From Rhodospirillales bacterium (GTDB taxonomy: Bacteria > Pseudomonadota > Alphaproteobacteria > Rhodospirillales > Casp-alpha2), in NCBI GenBank assembly GCA_023145215.1, contig JAGLED010000001.1, forward strand, positions 217,776-281,775: 64,000 bases of DNA, written 5' to 3'. The translations under genes were made by a program, and so were the position numbers. Shown piece by piece: positions 55,257-61,519 of this stretch. Position 1 is the stretch's first letter. Every line of letters starts with the position of its first letter. The notes beneath the pieces were generated by a model that saw nothing but the letters and a program-made list of their open reading frames with translations, made no database searches and was not told the DNA's origin.

Positions 55257-56684
55257 ATGACCGAAAACGGCAAAATCGTGCCCGTGATCCTGTCGGGCGG
55301 CGCCGGGCAAAGGCTTTGGCCGTTGTCGCGCCAGCAGTATCCCAAACAGTTCCTCAATCTCGCCGGCGACGAGAGCATGCTGCAGGACACCATCCGGCGG
55401 GTCAGCGGCGCGGACTTCGAAGCGGCAATGTTCATCTGCAACGACGAACACCGTTTCCTGGTCGCCGAACAGGCGCGCGCCATCGAATACGCGCCCCGCG
55501 CCATCGTGCTCGAGCCCGAAGGCCGCAACACCGCGCCGGCGGCGGCCTTGGCGGCGCTGATCCTGGTTCGGGACAACCCCGATTCGCTCATGCTTCTGGC
55601 GCCGTCGGATCATGTCATCGAGGATTCGGAGGCCTTCCGGGCCGCCGTAACGGCCGCCCTGCCGGCTGCCGAGGCGGGCCGCTTCGTCACCTTCGGTATC
55701 CGTCCGACACGCCCGGCGACGGGCTATGGGTATATCCGCGCGGGCCTGCCGCTCGACGGCATGCCGGGCTGTGTCGATATCGGGCTCTTCGCCGAAAAAC
55801 CGGACCGGGCGACGGCGGAGACGTACCTCGCCGATGGCGGATACTGCTGGAACGCCGGGATCTTCCTGTTCCGGGCGGCGGCGTATCTCGACGCGCTCGA
55901 GAAGCTTCGCCCGGATATTCTGAATGCCTGCCGCAACGCGGTTTCGGGCGGGCGCGACGACATCGATTTCTTCCGTCCCGACCCCGAGGCGTTCGCCGAA
56001 TGCCCCTCGCAGTCGATCGACTACGCGGTGATGGAACACACCGACAGCGGCGCGATGGTGCCGGTCGACATGGGCTGGAACGACTTGGGTTCGTGGGACG
56101 CGCTGTGGCAGATCGGCGAGCACGACGAGAGCGGCAATGTTATTTCCGGCGACGTCGTCGCGCACGAGACGTCGAATGCGTATCTGCATTCGACGGGGCC
56201 GCTGCTGGCCGCCGTCGGCGTCGAGGACATCCTGCTGATCGCCACGGATGACGCCGTGCTGGCGGTCGCCCGCGACAAGGTCGAGGCGGTCAAGGACGTG
56301 GTCCAGATGCTGAAACAGAGCGGCCGCTCCGAGCATCTGCATCACGATCGGGTCTACCGGCCGTGGGGCTGGTACCAGTCGCTCGACATGGGCGAGCGGT
56401 TCCAGGTCAAGCATCTGATGGTCAAGCCAGGCGCCGGGCTCTCGCTGCAGTCGCACCAGCACCGCGCCGAGCATTGGGTCGTGGTCAGCGGCACCGCGAA
56501 AGTGACCCGGGGAGACGACATCCTGACGCTGTCGCCGAACCAGTCGACCTATCTGCCGGCCGGCACGAAACATTCGCTTGAGAACCCCGGGGACGTGCCG
56601 CTCCGGGTCATCGAGGTGCAGACCGGCAGCTACCTCGGCGAGGACGACATCGTCCGCTACGAAGACCGCTACGGACGGGCCTGA
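55257..56684 (+). CDS. mannose-1-phosphate guanylyltransferase/mannose-6-phosphate isomerase
   Basis: VILSGGAGQRLWPLSRQQYPKQF; C-terminal cupin (YRPWGWYQSLDMGERFQVKHLMVKPGAGLSLQSHQHRAEHWVVVSGTAKVT). Confidence 0.95.
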   Translation: MTENGKIVPVILSGGAGQRLWPLSRQQYPKQFLNLAGDESMLQDTIRRVSGADFEAAMFICNDEHRFLVAEQARAIEYAPRAIVLEPEGRNTAPAAALAALILVRDNPDSLMLLAPSDHVIEDSEAFRAAVTAALPAAEAGRFVTFGIRPTRPATGYGYIRAGLPLDGMPGCVDIGLFAEKPDRATAETYLADGGYCWNAGIFLFRAAAYLDALEKLRPDILNACRNAVSGGRDDIDFFRPDPEAFAECPSQSIDYAVMEHTDSGAMVPVDMGWNDLGSWDALWQIGEHDESGNVISGDVVAHETSNAYLHSTGPLLAAVGVEDILLIATDDAVLAVARDKVEAVKDVVQMLKQSGRSEHLHHDRVYRPWGWYQSLDMGERFQVKHLMVKPGAGLSLQSHQHRAEHWVVVSGTAKVTRGDDILTLSPNQSTYLPAGTKHSLENPGDVPLRVIEVQTGSYLGEDDIVRYEDRYGRA

Positions 56685-56751: not shown

Positions 56752-56809
56752 GTTCAAGAAATGAACTTGACGTTCAGGCATTGAACGCAGTACTGTTCGA
56801 TTCGTGAAC
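56752..56809. promoter_or_regulatory. array of six GTTCA/TGAAC half-sites (three tandem 5-5-5 palindromes)
   Basis: GTTCA-AGAAA-TGAAC (56752), GTTCA-GGCAT-TGAAC (56772), GTTCG-ATTCG-TGAAC (56795); first four half-sites exactly 10 bp apart. Confidence 0.75.
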
Positions 56810-56916
56810 GCGGGCTGACCCGGTGGCTGTTTTCCGGGGCTTTCCGAGGGATATTGACCGGGGCGTTTCAGAGACTCTTCAGGGGCCTCAAGCAGACATC
56901 TTCGACGGGACGAAAA

Positions 56917-56935
56917 CGGGCGGCAGCGCCGCCCG
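56917..56935 (+). promoter_or_regulatory. perfect GC hairpin in the leader of the wHTH gene
   Basis: CGGGCGGC-AGC-GCCGCCCG, 17 nt before the GTG start at 56953. Confidence 0.55.
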
Positions 56936-56952
56936 GCGGCGGGATTCAAGCA

Positions 56953-57609
56953 GTGTCTAAAATCAAGATCGAGACGTCGGACATGGACAACGAGGCCAAG
57001 ATCACCCTCGGCCTCCTCAACATGGTCCACGACAACGCTCAGGCCTCGCAGCGTTCGATGGCCGACGGCCTCGGCATCGCGCTCGGCCTCGCCAACGCAT
57101 ACCTCAAGCGCTGCGTCAAAAAAGGCCTGATCAAGATCAGCCACGCGCCCGCCAACCGCTATGCGTACTATCTGACACCGCAGGGCTTCACCGAGAAATC
57201 CAGGCTGACGGCCGAGTTCCTGTCGCAGTCGTTCAACCTGTTCCGCCACGCCCGGACCGCGGGTGCCGACATGTTCGGCAAGTGCCAGTCGCGCGGCTGG
57301 ACCCGTATCGCATTGCTCGGCGCCGGCGACCTTGCCGAAATCTTCACCCTGTCGGCGCGCGATTTCGACATCGAACTGGCGGGCGTCATCGCCGATCTTC
57401 CGAATGCCAGCGAGTTCGCCGGCCTGCCGGTGATCCCGCCCGCCGCCTGCGAGCAGGCCGACATTGACGCCGTGATCGTCTGCGATATCTCCAACCCACA
57501 GGCCGCCTTCGACCGGGCGCTGACGCTGTTCGCACCCGATCGCGTACTGGCGCCGCGCTTTTTAGGGGTGGTCCGGCCCGATGAGATCGCGGCAGGAGCG
57601 GGCGAATGA
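56953..57609 (+). CDS. winged-HTH protein with C-terminal Rossmann-like domain (putative glycan-locus regulator)
   Basis: wHTH segment (ITLGLLNMVHDNAQASQRSMADGLGIALGLANAYLKRCVKKGLIKI), then IALLGAGDLAEIFTLSARDFDIELAGVIAD...DAVIVCDISNPQAAF; GTG start inferred, ATG at 56983 also possible. Confidence 0.8.
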   Translation: MSKIKIETSDMDNEAKITLGLLNMVHDNAQASQRSMADGLGIALGLANAYLKRCVKKGLIKISHAPANRYAYYLTPQGFTEKSRLTAEFLSQSFNLFRHARTAGADMFGKCQSRGWTRIALLGAGDLAEIFTLSARDFDIELAGVIADLPNASEFAGLPVIPPAACEQADIDAVIVCDISNPQAAFDRALTLFAPDRVLAPRFLGVVRPDEIAAGAGE

Positions 57610-58109
57610 CGTATTGGTGCGCCGTCAACACGCAGGTCAACGCCGAGGACAAGGCCGTCTTCCATCTGATGCGTCAGGGCTTCAAGGTCTTGCTGCCGAA
57701 GCACCTCAAACGGCGCTCGCACGCCCGCAAGGTCGAGTGGGTGCCCAGGCCGTTGTTCCCAGGCTACCTGTTCGTCGAGATCGACCCCGAGCGTTCGCCG
57801 TGGCGCGCGATCCGTTCGACCGTCGGCATTTTCGATGTGATCCGCTTCGGCGAGAAACCGGCGCCGATCCCGAACGAGGTGATCGACGAAATCAGGGCGC
57901 GCCAGGACGAGAACGGCCTCGTGAAGACCCACGACGGGACCAATTTCAAACCGGGCGACGCGGTACGCGTGCTGCAGGGCGCGCTCGGTGAATTCGAAGC
58001 TCTTTTCGAAAGCACGGACGACCGCAACCGGGTCACCGTGCTGTTGAACATGCTCGGCCGCCAGGTGCGCGCCCGGGTCAGCAAAAACGCCGTGTTCGCC
58101 GCGATCTAG
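57606..58109 (+). CDS. NusG/RfaH-like specialised transcription antitermination factor
   Basis: YWCAVNTQVNAEDKAVFHLMRQGFKVLLPKHLKRRSHARKVEWVPRPLFPGYLFVEIDPE plus KOW-like FKPGDAVRVLQGALGEFEALFES; 4-bp overlap with upstream gene. Confidence 0.92.
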   Translation: MTYWCAVNTQVNAEDKAVFHLMRQGFKVLLPKHLKRRSHARKVEWVPRPLFPGYLFVEIDPERSPWRAIRSTVGIFDVIRFGEKPAPIPNEVIDEIRARQDENGLVKTHDGTNFKPGDAVRVLQGALGEFEALFESTDDRNRVTVLLNMLGRQVRARVSKNAVFAAI

Positions 58110-58207
58110 CGCGCGCACGCACGGCCGTTATCCGTTTCCGCACTCGGGGGCTTTTCACCCGGAGTGCGGTAGCATGTCTGAAACACGTCAAAGAATCCGG
58201 AGTTTCC

Positions 58208-59239
58208 GTGAACGCTGAACCTTCCTCCCCGGGCGCCGGGCGCCTCGTCACCATTTTCGGCGGTGCCGGCTACATCGGCCCGATCGTCGCCAAACGCCTC
58301 CTGCGCCAGGGCTACCGGGTGCGCATTGTCGATATGTTCCTTTACGGCACCCAGAACGTGCTGCTTGGTCTGTTCGACGAGCCGGGTCTTGAGGTGCTGA
58401 ACGGCGACGAAGGGAAAAGCGACGTGCTGGACCGCGCGCTTGAGGGCGCCACCGACGTGGTGATCCTGGCCGGCCTGGTCGGCGATCCGATCACGAAGAA
58501 GTATCCCGAAGCCCATCAGGCGGTGAACGAAGACGGCATCGCCGGCATCATCGACGCGCTCGATGGGCGCGGTCTGAAGCGCGCCATCTTCGTTTCGACG
58601 TGTTCCAACTACGGCCTGATCCCGGAGGGCACGCTCGCCGACGAGGGCTTCGAGCTCAATCCGCTGTCGCTTTACGCCAAAGCCAAGGTCGGGATGGAGA
58701 AGAAGCTTCTGGGCCTCGAAGGCAAAGTCGATTTCGAGGGCGTGGCACTCCGCTTCGCGACCGCGTTCGGCCTGGCGCCCCGCATGCGGTTCGATCTGAC
58801 GGTGAGCCAGTTCACCCGCGAGATGTACCTGAAAAACGATCTCCTGGTTTACGATCCCGACACCTGGCGGCCTTATTGCCACGTGCAGGATTTTGCCGAG
58901 GTCATCCAACGGGTCCTCGAAGCGTCCGCGGACAAAGTCGCCTTCGACGTCTTCAACGCCGGCGGCGACGCCAACAACTTCACGAAAAGGATGATCGTCG
59001 AGGCGATCCAGAAGCATATTCCGGACGCGCCGGTGGATTATCAGGAGCACGGATCGGACCCGCGGAACTACCGCGTCGACTTTTCCAAGATCCGCGAACG
59101 GCTCGGCTTCACGCCCCGCTACACCGTCGAGGACGGCATCCGCGAATTGATCCGGGCGCTGGATCAGGACCTGTTCGCCGACGTCGACGCGCGCACCAAT
59201 TTTTACGGCAACTACGAGATCGACTACCCGGCGAAATGA
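58208..59239 (+). CDS. NAD-dependent epimerase/dehydratase
   Basis: TIFGGAGYIGPIVAKRLLRQGYRVRIVD, FVSTCSNYG, YAKAKVGMEKKLL; GTG start. Confidence 0.93.
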   Translation: MNAEPSSPGAGRLVTIFGGAGYIGPIVAKRLLRQGYRVRIVDMFLYGTQNVLLGLFDEPGLEVLNGDEGKSDVLDRALEGATDVVILAGLVGDPITKKYPEAHQAVNEDGIAGIIDALDGRGLKRAIFVSTCSNYGLIPEGTLADEGFELNPLSLYAKAKVGMEKKLLGLEGKVDFEGVALRFATAFGLAPRMRFDLTVSQFTREMYLKNDLLVYDPDTWRPYCHVQDFAEVIQRVLEASADKVAFDVFNAGGDANNFTKRMIVEAIQKHIPDAPVDYQEHGSDPRNYRVDFSKIRERLGFTPRYTVEDGIRELIRALDQDLFADVDARTNFYGNYEIDYPAK

Positions 59240-60447
59240 CCGCGCCGCGCAAAATCTGCGTCGTCACCGGGACCCGCGCCGAGTACGGTCTGATGTACTG
59301 GCTGATGCGCGAGATCGAGCAAGACCCTGCGCTCGAACTTCAACTGATCGTCACGGGCGCGCACCTCGAGCCCCGCTTCGGCAATACCGTAGACGTGATC
59401 GAGCGCGACGGCTTCAGGATCGATGCCCGCGTGCCGATCGATCTATCCGACGACACGCCGCGCGGGATCGTCAAGTCGACCGCGCTGGCGGCAAGCGGCA
59501 TCGCGGACGCCTTCGAAACGCTGGCGCCGGACATCGTGGTTTTGCTGGGTGACAGGTTCGAGATTTTCGGCGCGGCCCAGGCAGCGATGATCACGCGCCG
59601 TGTCATCGCACATCTATACGGCGGCGAGGTTACGGAAGGCGTGATCGACGACCCGATCCGTCACGCCATCACCAAGATGTCGCATCTTCATTTCACATCG
59701 GCGGCGTCCTACCGCGACCGGATATTGCAGATGGGCGAGTCTCCCGCCCATACCTTTAACGTCGGCGCGATCGGTCTGGACAACATCGATATGCTGGATC
59801 TGCTGGACCGTGACGCGCTTGGGGAAGATATCGGCCTCGATCTCGGCGGCGGCTATTTTCTAGTCACGTACCACCCCGTCACCCTGAACGACAGCGTGCC
59901 AGAAGCCGGGGCGCAGGCGCTGGTTCAGGCACTCGATGCGTTCCCGGACAAGAAGGTGATCGTCACGGGGGTGAACGCGGATAGCGGTAACGCCGCCATT
60001 CGCCGGGTCTTCGAAAACTTCGCCATGGGCAACGCCGGACGCGTCCTGATGATCACGTCGATGGGGCAACGCCGTTATTTGAGCGCGATGAAACACTGCG
60101 ACGCCGTCGTCGGCAATTCGTCGAGCGGCATCGTCGAGGCGCCGTCGTTCGGCGTGCCGACCGTCAACATCGGCGACCGGCAGAAAGGCCGCCTGCACGC
60201 CGCGTCCGTAATCGATTGCGCCGAGGACGCCGCATCCATCGCGTCTACGCTCCGTCATGCGACCGGCGAAGCGCACCGCAATGCCGCCCGTCAAGCCGTC
60301 AGCCCGTTCGGCGTGCCCGGCGTTTCAGCGCGCATCAAGCGCGTGCTGGCGGAGACGCCGCTGCACGGCATTATCATGAAAAAATTCGTCGATCTGCCGC
60401 TCGTTGCGGCGGAGGCCGACGATTCTCGGATCAGGGAAATCAGCTGA
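59236..60447 (+). CDS. neuC: UDP-N-acetylglucosamine 2-epimerase (hydrolysing), NeuC-like
   Basis: ICVVTGTRAEYGLMYWLM, LGDRFEIFGAAQAAM, HLYGGEVTEGVIDDPIRHAITKMSHLHF, GNSSSGIVEAPSFG. Confidence 0.93.
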   Translation: MTAPRKICVVTGTRAEYGLMYWLMREIEQDPALELQLIVTGAHLEPRFGNTVDVIERDGFRIDARVPIDLSDDTPRGIVKSTALAASGIADAFETLAPDIVVLLGDRFEIFGAAQAAMITRRVIAHLYGGEVTEGVIDDPIRHAITKMSHLHFTSAASYRDRILQMGESPAHTFNVGAIGLDNIDMLDLLDRDALGEDIGLDLGGGYFLVTYHPVTLNDSVPEAGAQALVQALDAFPDKKVIVTGVNADSGNAAIRRVFENFAMGNAGRVLMITSMGQRRYLSAMKHCDAVVGNSSSGIVEAPSFGVPTVNIGDRQKGRLHAASVIDCAEDAASIASTLRHATGEAHRNAARQAVSPFGVPGVSARIKRVLAETPLHGIIMKKFVDLPLVAAEADDSRIREIS

Positions 60448-60448
60448 C

Positions 60449-61519
60449 ATGGCCGTGTTCATCATTGCCGAAGCAGGGGTCAATCATAATGGCGATATGG
60501 CGCTGGCGCGCGGCCTGATCGACGCCGCCTGCGCCGCCAACGCAGACGCGGTCAAGTTCCAGACGTTCACCGCCGAAGAGGTGACGATCGAAAGCGCACC
60601 AAAGGCGAACTATCAGATGGAACTGACCCGACCGGACGAATCGCAACTCGACATGATCCGCACCTTCCAGCTCAGCCGCGAGGCGCATTTCGAGTTAACG
60701 GCGTATTGCGCCGAGAAGGGCATTCGCTTCATGTCGTCTCCGTTCGATATCGACAGCCTGCATTTCCTGACGGACCGGCTCCATCTCGACATACTGAAGA
60801 TTCCGTCCGGCGAGCTGGTCAACGGACCGATGCTGATGGCGGCCGGCACATCGGGCTGCGATATCATTCTTTCGACCGGCATGGCGGATATGGCGGAGAT
60901 TGAGACCGCGCTGGGCGTCCTCGCCTACGCCATGACCGGCGGCGACGAACCGGCACCCGGCGCGTTCAAGGCGGCTTTCGATTCCGCCGAGGGTCAGGAT
61001 CTCCTGCGCCGGAAAGTATCGCTACTGCATTGCACCACCGCCTATCCGACCCCCTATGCGGATGTGAACCTGCGCGCGATGCATGCCATCAAGGATGCGT
61101 TCGGGCTGCGGGTCGGTTATTCAGATCACACGCCGGGCATCGTCGTTTCGACCGCCGCCGTGGCTATGGGCGCGCAGATCATCGAAAAACACTTCACGCT
61201 CGACCGTTCGCTGCCCGGCCCCGATCACAAGGCTTCGCTCGAACCGGACGAATTGGCCGATCTGGTCACTCAGGTCCGACAGGTCGAAGCGGCGCTCGGC
61301 AACGGCGAGAAGCGGCCTTGCCCGGCAGAGATCGAGAACACCGACATCGCCCGAAAAAGCCTTGTCACCACCCAGCCCATCAAGGCCGGCGAGCCATTCA
61401 CGGCGGACAACCTCGGGATCAAGCGTCCGGGCTCGGGCATTTCGCCGATGAAATACTGGGACTGGCTGGGCAAACCGGCGCCGCGCGATTTCGACGCCGG
61501 CGTACTGGTCAGCGAGTAA
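60449..61519 (+). CDS. neuB: N-acetylneuraminate synthase family protein, NeuB-like
   Basis: IIAEAGVNHNGDMALARGLIDAACAANADAVKFQTF, SDHTPGIVVSTAAVAMGAQIIEKHFTLDRSLPGPDHKASLEP; C-terminal SAF-like domain. Confidence 0.95.
   Translation: MAVFIIAEAGVNHNGDMALARGLIDAACAANADAVKFQTFTAEEVTIESAPKANYQMELTRPDESQLDMIRTFQLSREAHFELTAYCAEKGIRFMSSPFDIDSLHFLTDRLHLDILKIPSGELVNGPMLMAAGTSGCDIILSTGMADMAEIETALGVLAYAMTGGDEPAPGAFKAAFDSAEGQDLLRRKVSLLHCTTAYPTPYADVNLRAMHAIKDAFGLRVGYSDHTPGIVVSTAAVAMGAQIIEKHFTLDRSLPGPDHKASLEPDELADLVTQVRQVEAALGNGEKRPCPAEIENTDIARKSLVTTQPIKAGEPFTADNLGIKRPGSGISPMKYWDWLGKPAPRDFDAGVLVSE

Follow-up and report, generated by a model that had tools for sequence, protein, structure and literature searches.

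Three tandem palindromes of the form GTTCA-N5-TGAAC, lying within 58 bp in front of a wHTH gene at a surface-glycan locus, are probably operators through which the MarR_EPS-like protein encoded downstream represses its own promoter. For this joint reading of the sequence data we estimate a probability of roughly 80%. It rests on the sites, their conservation, their association with the gene, the geometry of the promoter and the glycan context. In the window, by which we mean the whole 64-kb stretch of DNA that was analysed, all six half-sites of the preliminary description were recovered (GTTCA 56752, TGAAC 56762, GTTCA 56772, TGAAC 56782, GTTCG 56795 and TGAAC 56805), and they do pair into three tandem palindromes on the + strand. 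The upstream palindrome, O1 (GTTCAAGAAATGAAC, 56752..56766), and the core palindrome, O2 (GTTCAGGCATTGAAC, 56772..56786), are exact matches, and the downstream one, O3 (GTTCGATTCGTGAAC, 56795..56809), has one mismatch. O1 is retained in the closest congeners (L033 and L034), and the core position of O2 is conserved across loci.

The clustering of the sites is unusual. At up to one mismatch the dyad occurs exactly three times in the window, always inside the 58 bp, compared with about 1.6 occurrences scattered over 64 kb in shuffled sequence, and none of 150 Markov-1 simulated windows held two such dyads within 60 bp. Across the 2.3-Mb assembly (66% complete) the exact dyad is found only at O1 and O2. 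With one mismatch allowed it is found at 52 places in the genome, and no second cluster of three is present among the matches listed. Near the dyads, Rfam returned a single chance-level match that scored far below its gathering score.

The dyads are embedded in a predicted promoter. The predicted -35 element TTGACG (56767..56772, + strand) abuts O2 and shares one base with it, and the predicted -10 element TACTGT (56791..56796, + strand) follows after 18 bp. At 74 of the 99 dyad-bearing loci TTGAC directly abuts a dyad in the same way, and TAnnnT comes after an 18-bp spacer, at the same offset as in the window. The aligned logo of these 74 loci reads cTTGACGTTCA-N5-TGAAC[GA]NNNTANNNT, in which an 18-bp spacer with the dyad inside it separates a -35 element from a -10 element whose first T and A each reach 91% and whose last T reaches 64%. 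This conserved geometry places O2 in the promoter spacer, O3 over the end of the -10 element and the predicted start, and O1 upstream, and transcription in the window would be expected to start near 56803. A generic sigma-70 scan did not call the promoter, as its consensus is too strict for this one. Diverged gammaproteobacterial members carry TATAGT immediately before the dyad. A second dyad often accompanies the core one. In 41 instances it is 22-23 bp downstream, over the -10 element and start, and in 24, many in Hyphomicrobiales, it is 24-28 bp upstream. All of these arrangements overlap the promoter, which argues for repression. The same features characterize a MarR-type autoregulatory operator, a palindrome that overlaps the regulator's own predicted promoter and is conserved with the gene.

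In the proposed mechanism, one regulator dimer would bind each GTTCA-N5-TGAAC dyad. With O2 in the spacer of the operon's sigma-70-type promoter and O3 over the -10 element and start, the bound protein would keep RNA polymerase out and hold the operon of the regulator and a NusG paralog repressed, and O1 would be an additional site upstream of the -35 element. Release of the regulator, perhaps through a ligand of its Rossmann domain, would allow both proteins to be made, and the NusG paralog may then help polymerase through the long nonulosonate/glycan operon. The binding by the wHTH protein, the repression, the ligand and the antitermination step are inferred. An experimental precedent is RtrC of Caulobacter crescentus, a MarR-like wHTH protein that recognizes a pseudo-palindromic site, regulates itself negatively and represses when its site overlaps the -35/-10 region (PMC9648850), although RtrC is not the same protein, has more than a hundred sites in its genome and is likened here by site position and autoregulation, not by motif sequence.

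The wHTH protein could instead bind the same sites but activate, and a MarR-type precedent exists in ExpG/MucS of Sinorhizobium meliloti, an activator of exopolysaccharide II genes whose binding sites are short palindromes at polysaccharide promoters, its own among them (PMC1403797). This comparison is made without reference to site sequence, and ExpG/MucS differs in being linked to phosphate control. Activation could proceed by MerR-like remodelling of the spacer, in keeping with the position of O2, or from O1 as an upstream activator site, in keeping with the O1-type sites found upstream of the -35 element in many loci. However, MerR promoters typically have spacers of 19-20 bp; here the spacer is 18 bp, which is near optimal, and the protein matches HTH_24/MarR_2 rather than a MerR-family HTH. 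A protein at O3 and at the 41 corresponding sites over the -10 element and start would also block polymerase, and the RtrC position rule predicts repression (PMC9648850). Hence, we regard activation as improbable, if still the most serious competitor of repression. ExpG/MucS is not known to have a Rossmann domain or a NusG partner.

Conservation of the dyads upstream of orthologs had been set beforehand as the test, a lack of it counting against a function. From 60 relatives and a public genome collection we obtained 102 distinct wHTH loci and scored the zone from -300 to +10 relative to the wHTH start. The outcome was the opposite of a refutation: an exact dyad is present at 87 of the 102 loci and a dyad with at most one mismatch at 95, compared with only 17 exact dyads in the other 846 kb of sequence at these loci, which favours a function. 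Several of these 17 are themselves operator-like, lying before NusG-first operons (L074, L096) or straddling a start codon (L073, L089, L112). Diverged relatives such as L101 and L106 have a poor palindrome at most.

The array also follows the gene at the level of whole genomes, in which the paired-dyad pattern and the protein were both searched (199 genomes in the order, 241 in the class). In the order, 48 of 84 carriers of the wHTH gene have a paired-dyad array and none of 115 non-carriers does (Fisher p 2e-23), so the paired pattern is missing from some carriers. At class level the figures are 29/58 and 3/183 (Fisher p 4e-18). A hand count from the tables puts a wHTH gene directly downstream of 50 of the order's 53 arrays and of 27 of 40 at class level; ten of the remaining class-level arrays are located elsewhere in genomes carrying it. 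One genome (G642) has three paralogous wHTH genes (contigs C7, C75 and C141), each with its own paired operator. Thus the proposal that the dyads are a regulatory site is borne out by their conservation at some 100 loci of the wHTH gene, and the wHTH-Rossmann protein encoded next to them remains, as first suggested, the best candidate ligand, given that the box follows its gene and that arrays are rare without it.

We consider it very unlikely that the operon falls by chance under another regulator, for example LexA or Rex, to which the sites would belong. The sequence GTTC...GAAC does resemble LexA half-sites, and a Rex structure (3wgh) ranks first among the fold matches to the wHTH-Rossmann model, but neither box fits. 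The alphaproteobacterial LexA box is a direct repeat, GTTC-N7-GTTC, whereas the repeat in the window is inverted, and the Rex box is TTGTGAA-N4-TTCACAA, whereas the half-site in the window is GTTCA with a 5-bp gap. Moreover, the array tracks the wHTH gene, including its duplications.

The candidate ligand of O1-O3 is encoded at 56953..57609 (+ strand, GTG start) and matches HTH_24 (4.5e-9). Its wHTH is homologous to TIGR04176 MarR_EPS (E 3.7e-17 over residues 16-93), with a score of 62.3 bits that is under the curated 88-bit cut-off. At 218 aa with a Rossmann-like second domain, it is not a short stand-alone protein of about 105 aa. An AlphaFold model (mean pLDDT 82) shows the wHTH (helices 8-27, 33-40 and 44-56), a long helix (76-113) and the Rossmann-like domain. 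Conservation within the protein is highest in the wHTH, including its recognition helix, and HTH_24/MarR_2 matches are found in all or nearly all members. As a sign of a Rex fold with an NAD(H)-binding Rossmann domain, the Foldseek match to 3wgh is weak (E 3.6e-4, TM 0.31, rmsd 19.6). Rex shares the wHTH and Rossmann architecture but has a different operator and no sequence similarity in a PDB search with the wHTH profile, which returned nothing significant.

The dyads lie, as described previously, between an algA-type gene, here a mannose-1-phosphate guanylyltransferase/isomerase gene that ends at 56684, and the wHTH gene. Downstream, all on the + strand, a gene for an RfaH/UpxY-like NusG paralog overlaps the end of the regulator gene (57606..58109; NusG N-terminal domain 4.6e-19; 124 bits against the RfaH model, below its cut-off of 144.5), followed by an NAD-dependent epimerase/dehydratase (58208..59239; Epimerase 3e-27), a NeuC-type UDP-GlcNAc 2-epimerase (59233..60399; TIGR03568, 447 bits, over cut-off) and a NeuB-type nonulosonate synthase (60440..61519; TIGR03569, 461 bits, over cut-off). 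These genes identify a nonulosonate/surface-glycan locus. A NusG paralog at the start of a surface-glycan locus is also seen in the UpxY/UpxZ and RfaH capsule-locus systems. In the window, however, it is paired with a candidate wHTH repressor and its operator, whereas the partner of UpxY is UpxZ, and RfaH genes are mostly located away from their targets. One operon would then combine a promoter-level repressor candidate with a NusG-type antiterminator, giving simple two-step control of glycan production.

Since a NusG paralog gene directly follows the regulator at 76 of the 102 loci, and RfaH reads the ops hairpin in the non-template strand (PMC7593976), the palindromes might alternatively be RNA or non-template-DNA hairpins read by the NusG paralog. 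We consider this as remote as control by LexA or Rex and reject the NusG paralog as the ligand: transcription is predicted to start downstream of both O1 and O2, about 10 loci have an exact palindrome but no NusG paralog in the DNA taken around the locus, and the box is retained at canonical MarR_EPS loci. A separate, strong inverted repeat without a T-run (CCGCACTC...GAGTGCGG, 58138-58169), lying after the NusG paralog and before the first glycan gene, could be an antiterminator target. The predicted operon leader (56810-56952) is about 150 nt, clearly longer than in many orthologs, where no more than about 80 nt separate the dyads from the start codon.

Helical phasing, which the preliminary description had taken as a sign of an oligomerising array, did not hold up. 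The first four half-sites are indeed at exact 10-bp steps, and the fifth and sixth are off this register, 13 bp after the fourth and then 10 bp further. Both the four regular steps and the 20-bp spacing of O1 and O2 are confined to this genome and two congeners, three genomes of one genus, in which the -35 box happens to fill a 5-bp gap (TGAAC-TTGAC-GTTCA). Adjacent half-sites do read as a palindrome in either register, but the second register is produced by this TTGAC. The three genomes share identical half-sites and promoter elements and differ in the spacers within O1 and O2. Outside them, dyads corresponding to O1 and O2 are mostly 24-34 bp apart, with 27 bp (about 2.6 turns) a common value. 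With the upstream spacing off the helical repeat elsewhere, conserved phasing and oligomerisation are unsupported; dimers may still cooperate in the ordinary way. The conserved unit is instead a 15-bp dyad against the -35 element, which a second one usually accompanies at a distance of 22-23 bp on the downstream side or 24-28 bp on the upstream side.

Secondary double sites are present at nonulosonate and surface-glycan genes in several other genomes that carry the wHTH gene. Three of these carriers (G155, G243 and G195) have them at a LegC/LegB gene pair, and LegB was confirmed as the partner in G243 and G195. In G232 they lie at RmlD/PseB, in G124 at formyltransferase/NeuB-type genes, in G187 at genes for a hexapeptide transferase and a CMP-sugar transferase, and in G294 at a sulfotransferase gene. 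For G111, the gene examined at the secondary site had no family match, and the set also includes unassigned sites in G085 and G214. These sites suggest that the wHTH protein probably has a small glycan regulon, a claim of moderate strength given the small number of sites and their reading by eye. The resulting proposal of a regulon of nonulosonate and other surface-glycan operons is testable.

The box extends to the wider family. Canonical short MarR_EPS genes (TIGR04176, about 105 aa, no Rossmann domain) share the homologous wHTH and the glycan-locus context, and 25 of 29 sampled in Gammaproteobacteria have the exact box upstream, compared with 4 exact dyads in the remaining 82 kb of sequence; at four of the 29 loci the exact box is absent. 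Over-cut-off stand-alone loci from a phylum sample carry it in 10 of 12 cases. MarR_EPS genes of the short kind usually have a single box, whereas the Rossmann-bearing regulator of the window has two or three. In eight genomes of another alphaproteobacterial family (L179, L180-L186) a MarR_EPS-like wHTH begins an open frame of about 700 aa; in one of them (L179:1474-3285) its fusion partners are ATP-sulfurylase and APS-kinase domains, and the product is apparently a self-regulating enzyme. All eight have GTTCA-N4-TGAAC upstream, with a 4-bp gap (in three of the eight twice, about 48-49 bp apart), and none has the 5-bp-gap dyad upstream at up to two mismatches.

That the half-site is kept across differing partner domains links it to the wHTH and not to those domains. 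We lean towards the view that GTTCA is one half-site code for the whole MarR_EPS-type superfamily across Proteobacteria, whatever is joined to the wHTH: nothing (short MarR_EPS), a Rossmann sensor (the window) or an ATP-sulfurylase/APS-kinase enzyme. The gap would go with the architecture, 5 bp in general and 4 bp in the enzyme-fusion group. The sequence could then serve to predict surface-glycan, nonulosonate and perhaps sulfate-activation regulons across hundreds of genomes. In the open-access literature searched we found neither a description of the GTTCA-N5-TGAAC box nor a DNA target for MarR_EPS-type regulators, although subscription journals could hold one. Such regulators, which have been little studied, occur in many proteobacterial genomes, and a likely target sequence and promoter layout can now be given for them; with the same putative switch before MarR_EPS-type genes across many Proteobacteria, targets become predictable from sequence.

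Arrays in genomes without the wHTH gene were found in G091, G212 and G292. In G091 a double GTTCA/TGAAC array (L153:3001-3045) precedes an HxlR-type regulator gene by 47 bp, and a similar site may thus serve another winged-helix family. G212 and G292, which belong to one genus, have a different, paired GTTCG/CGAAC form with a 4-bp gap between dyads (L154 and L155, near 3001), close to genes resembling a transporter operon, and these sites probably belong to an unrelated regulator.
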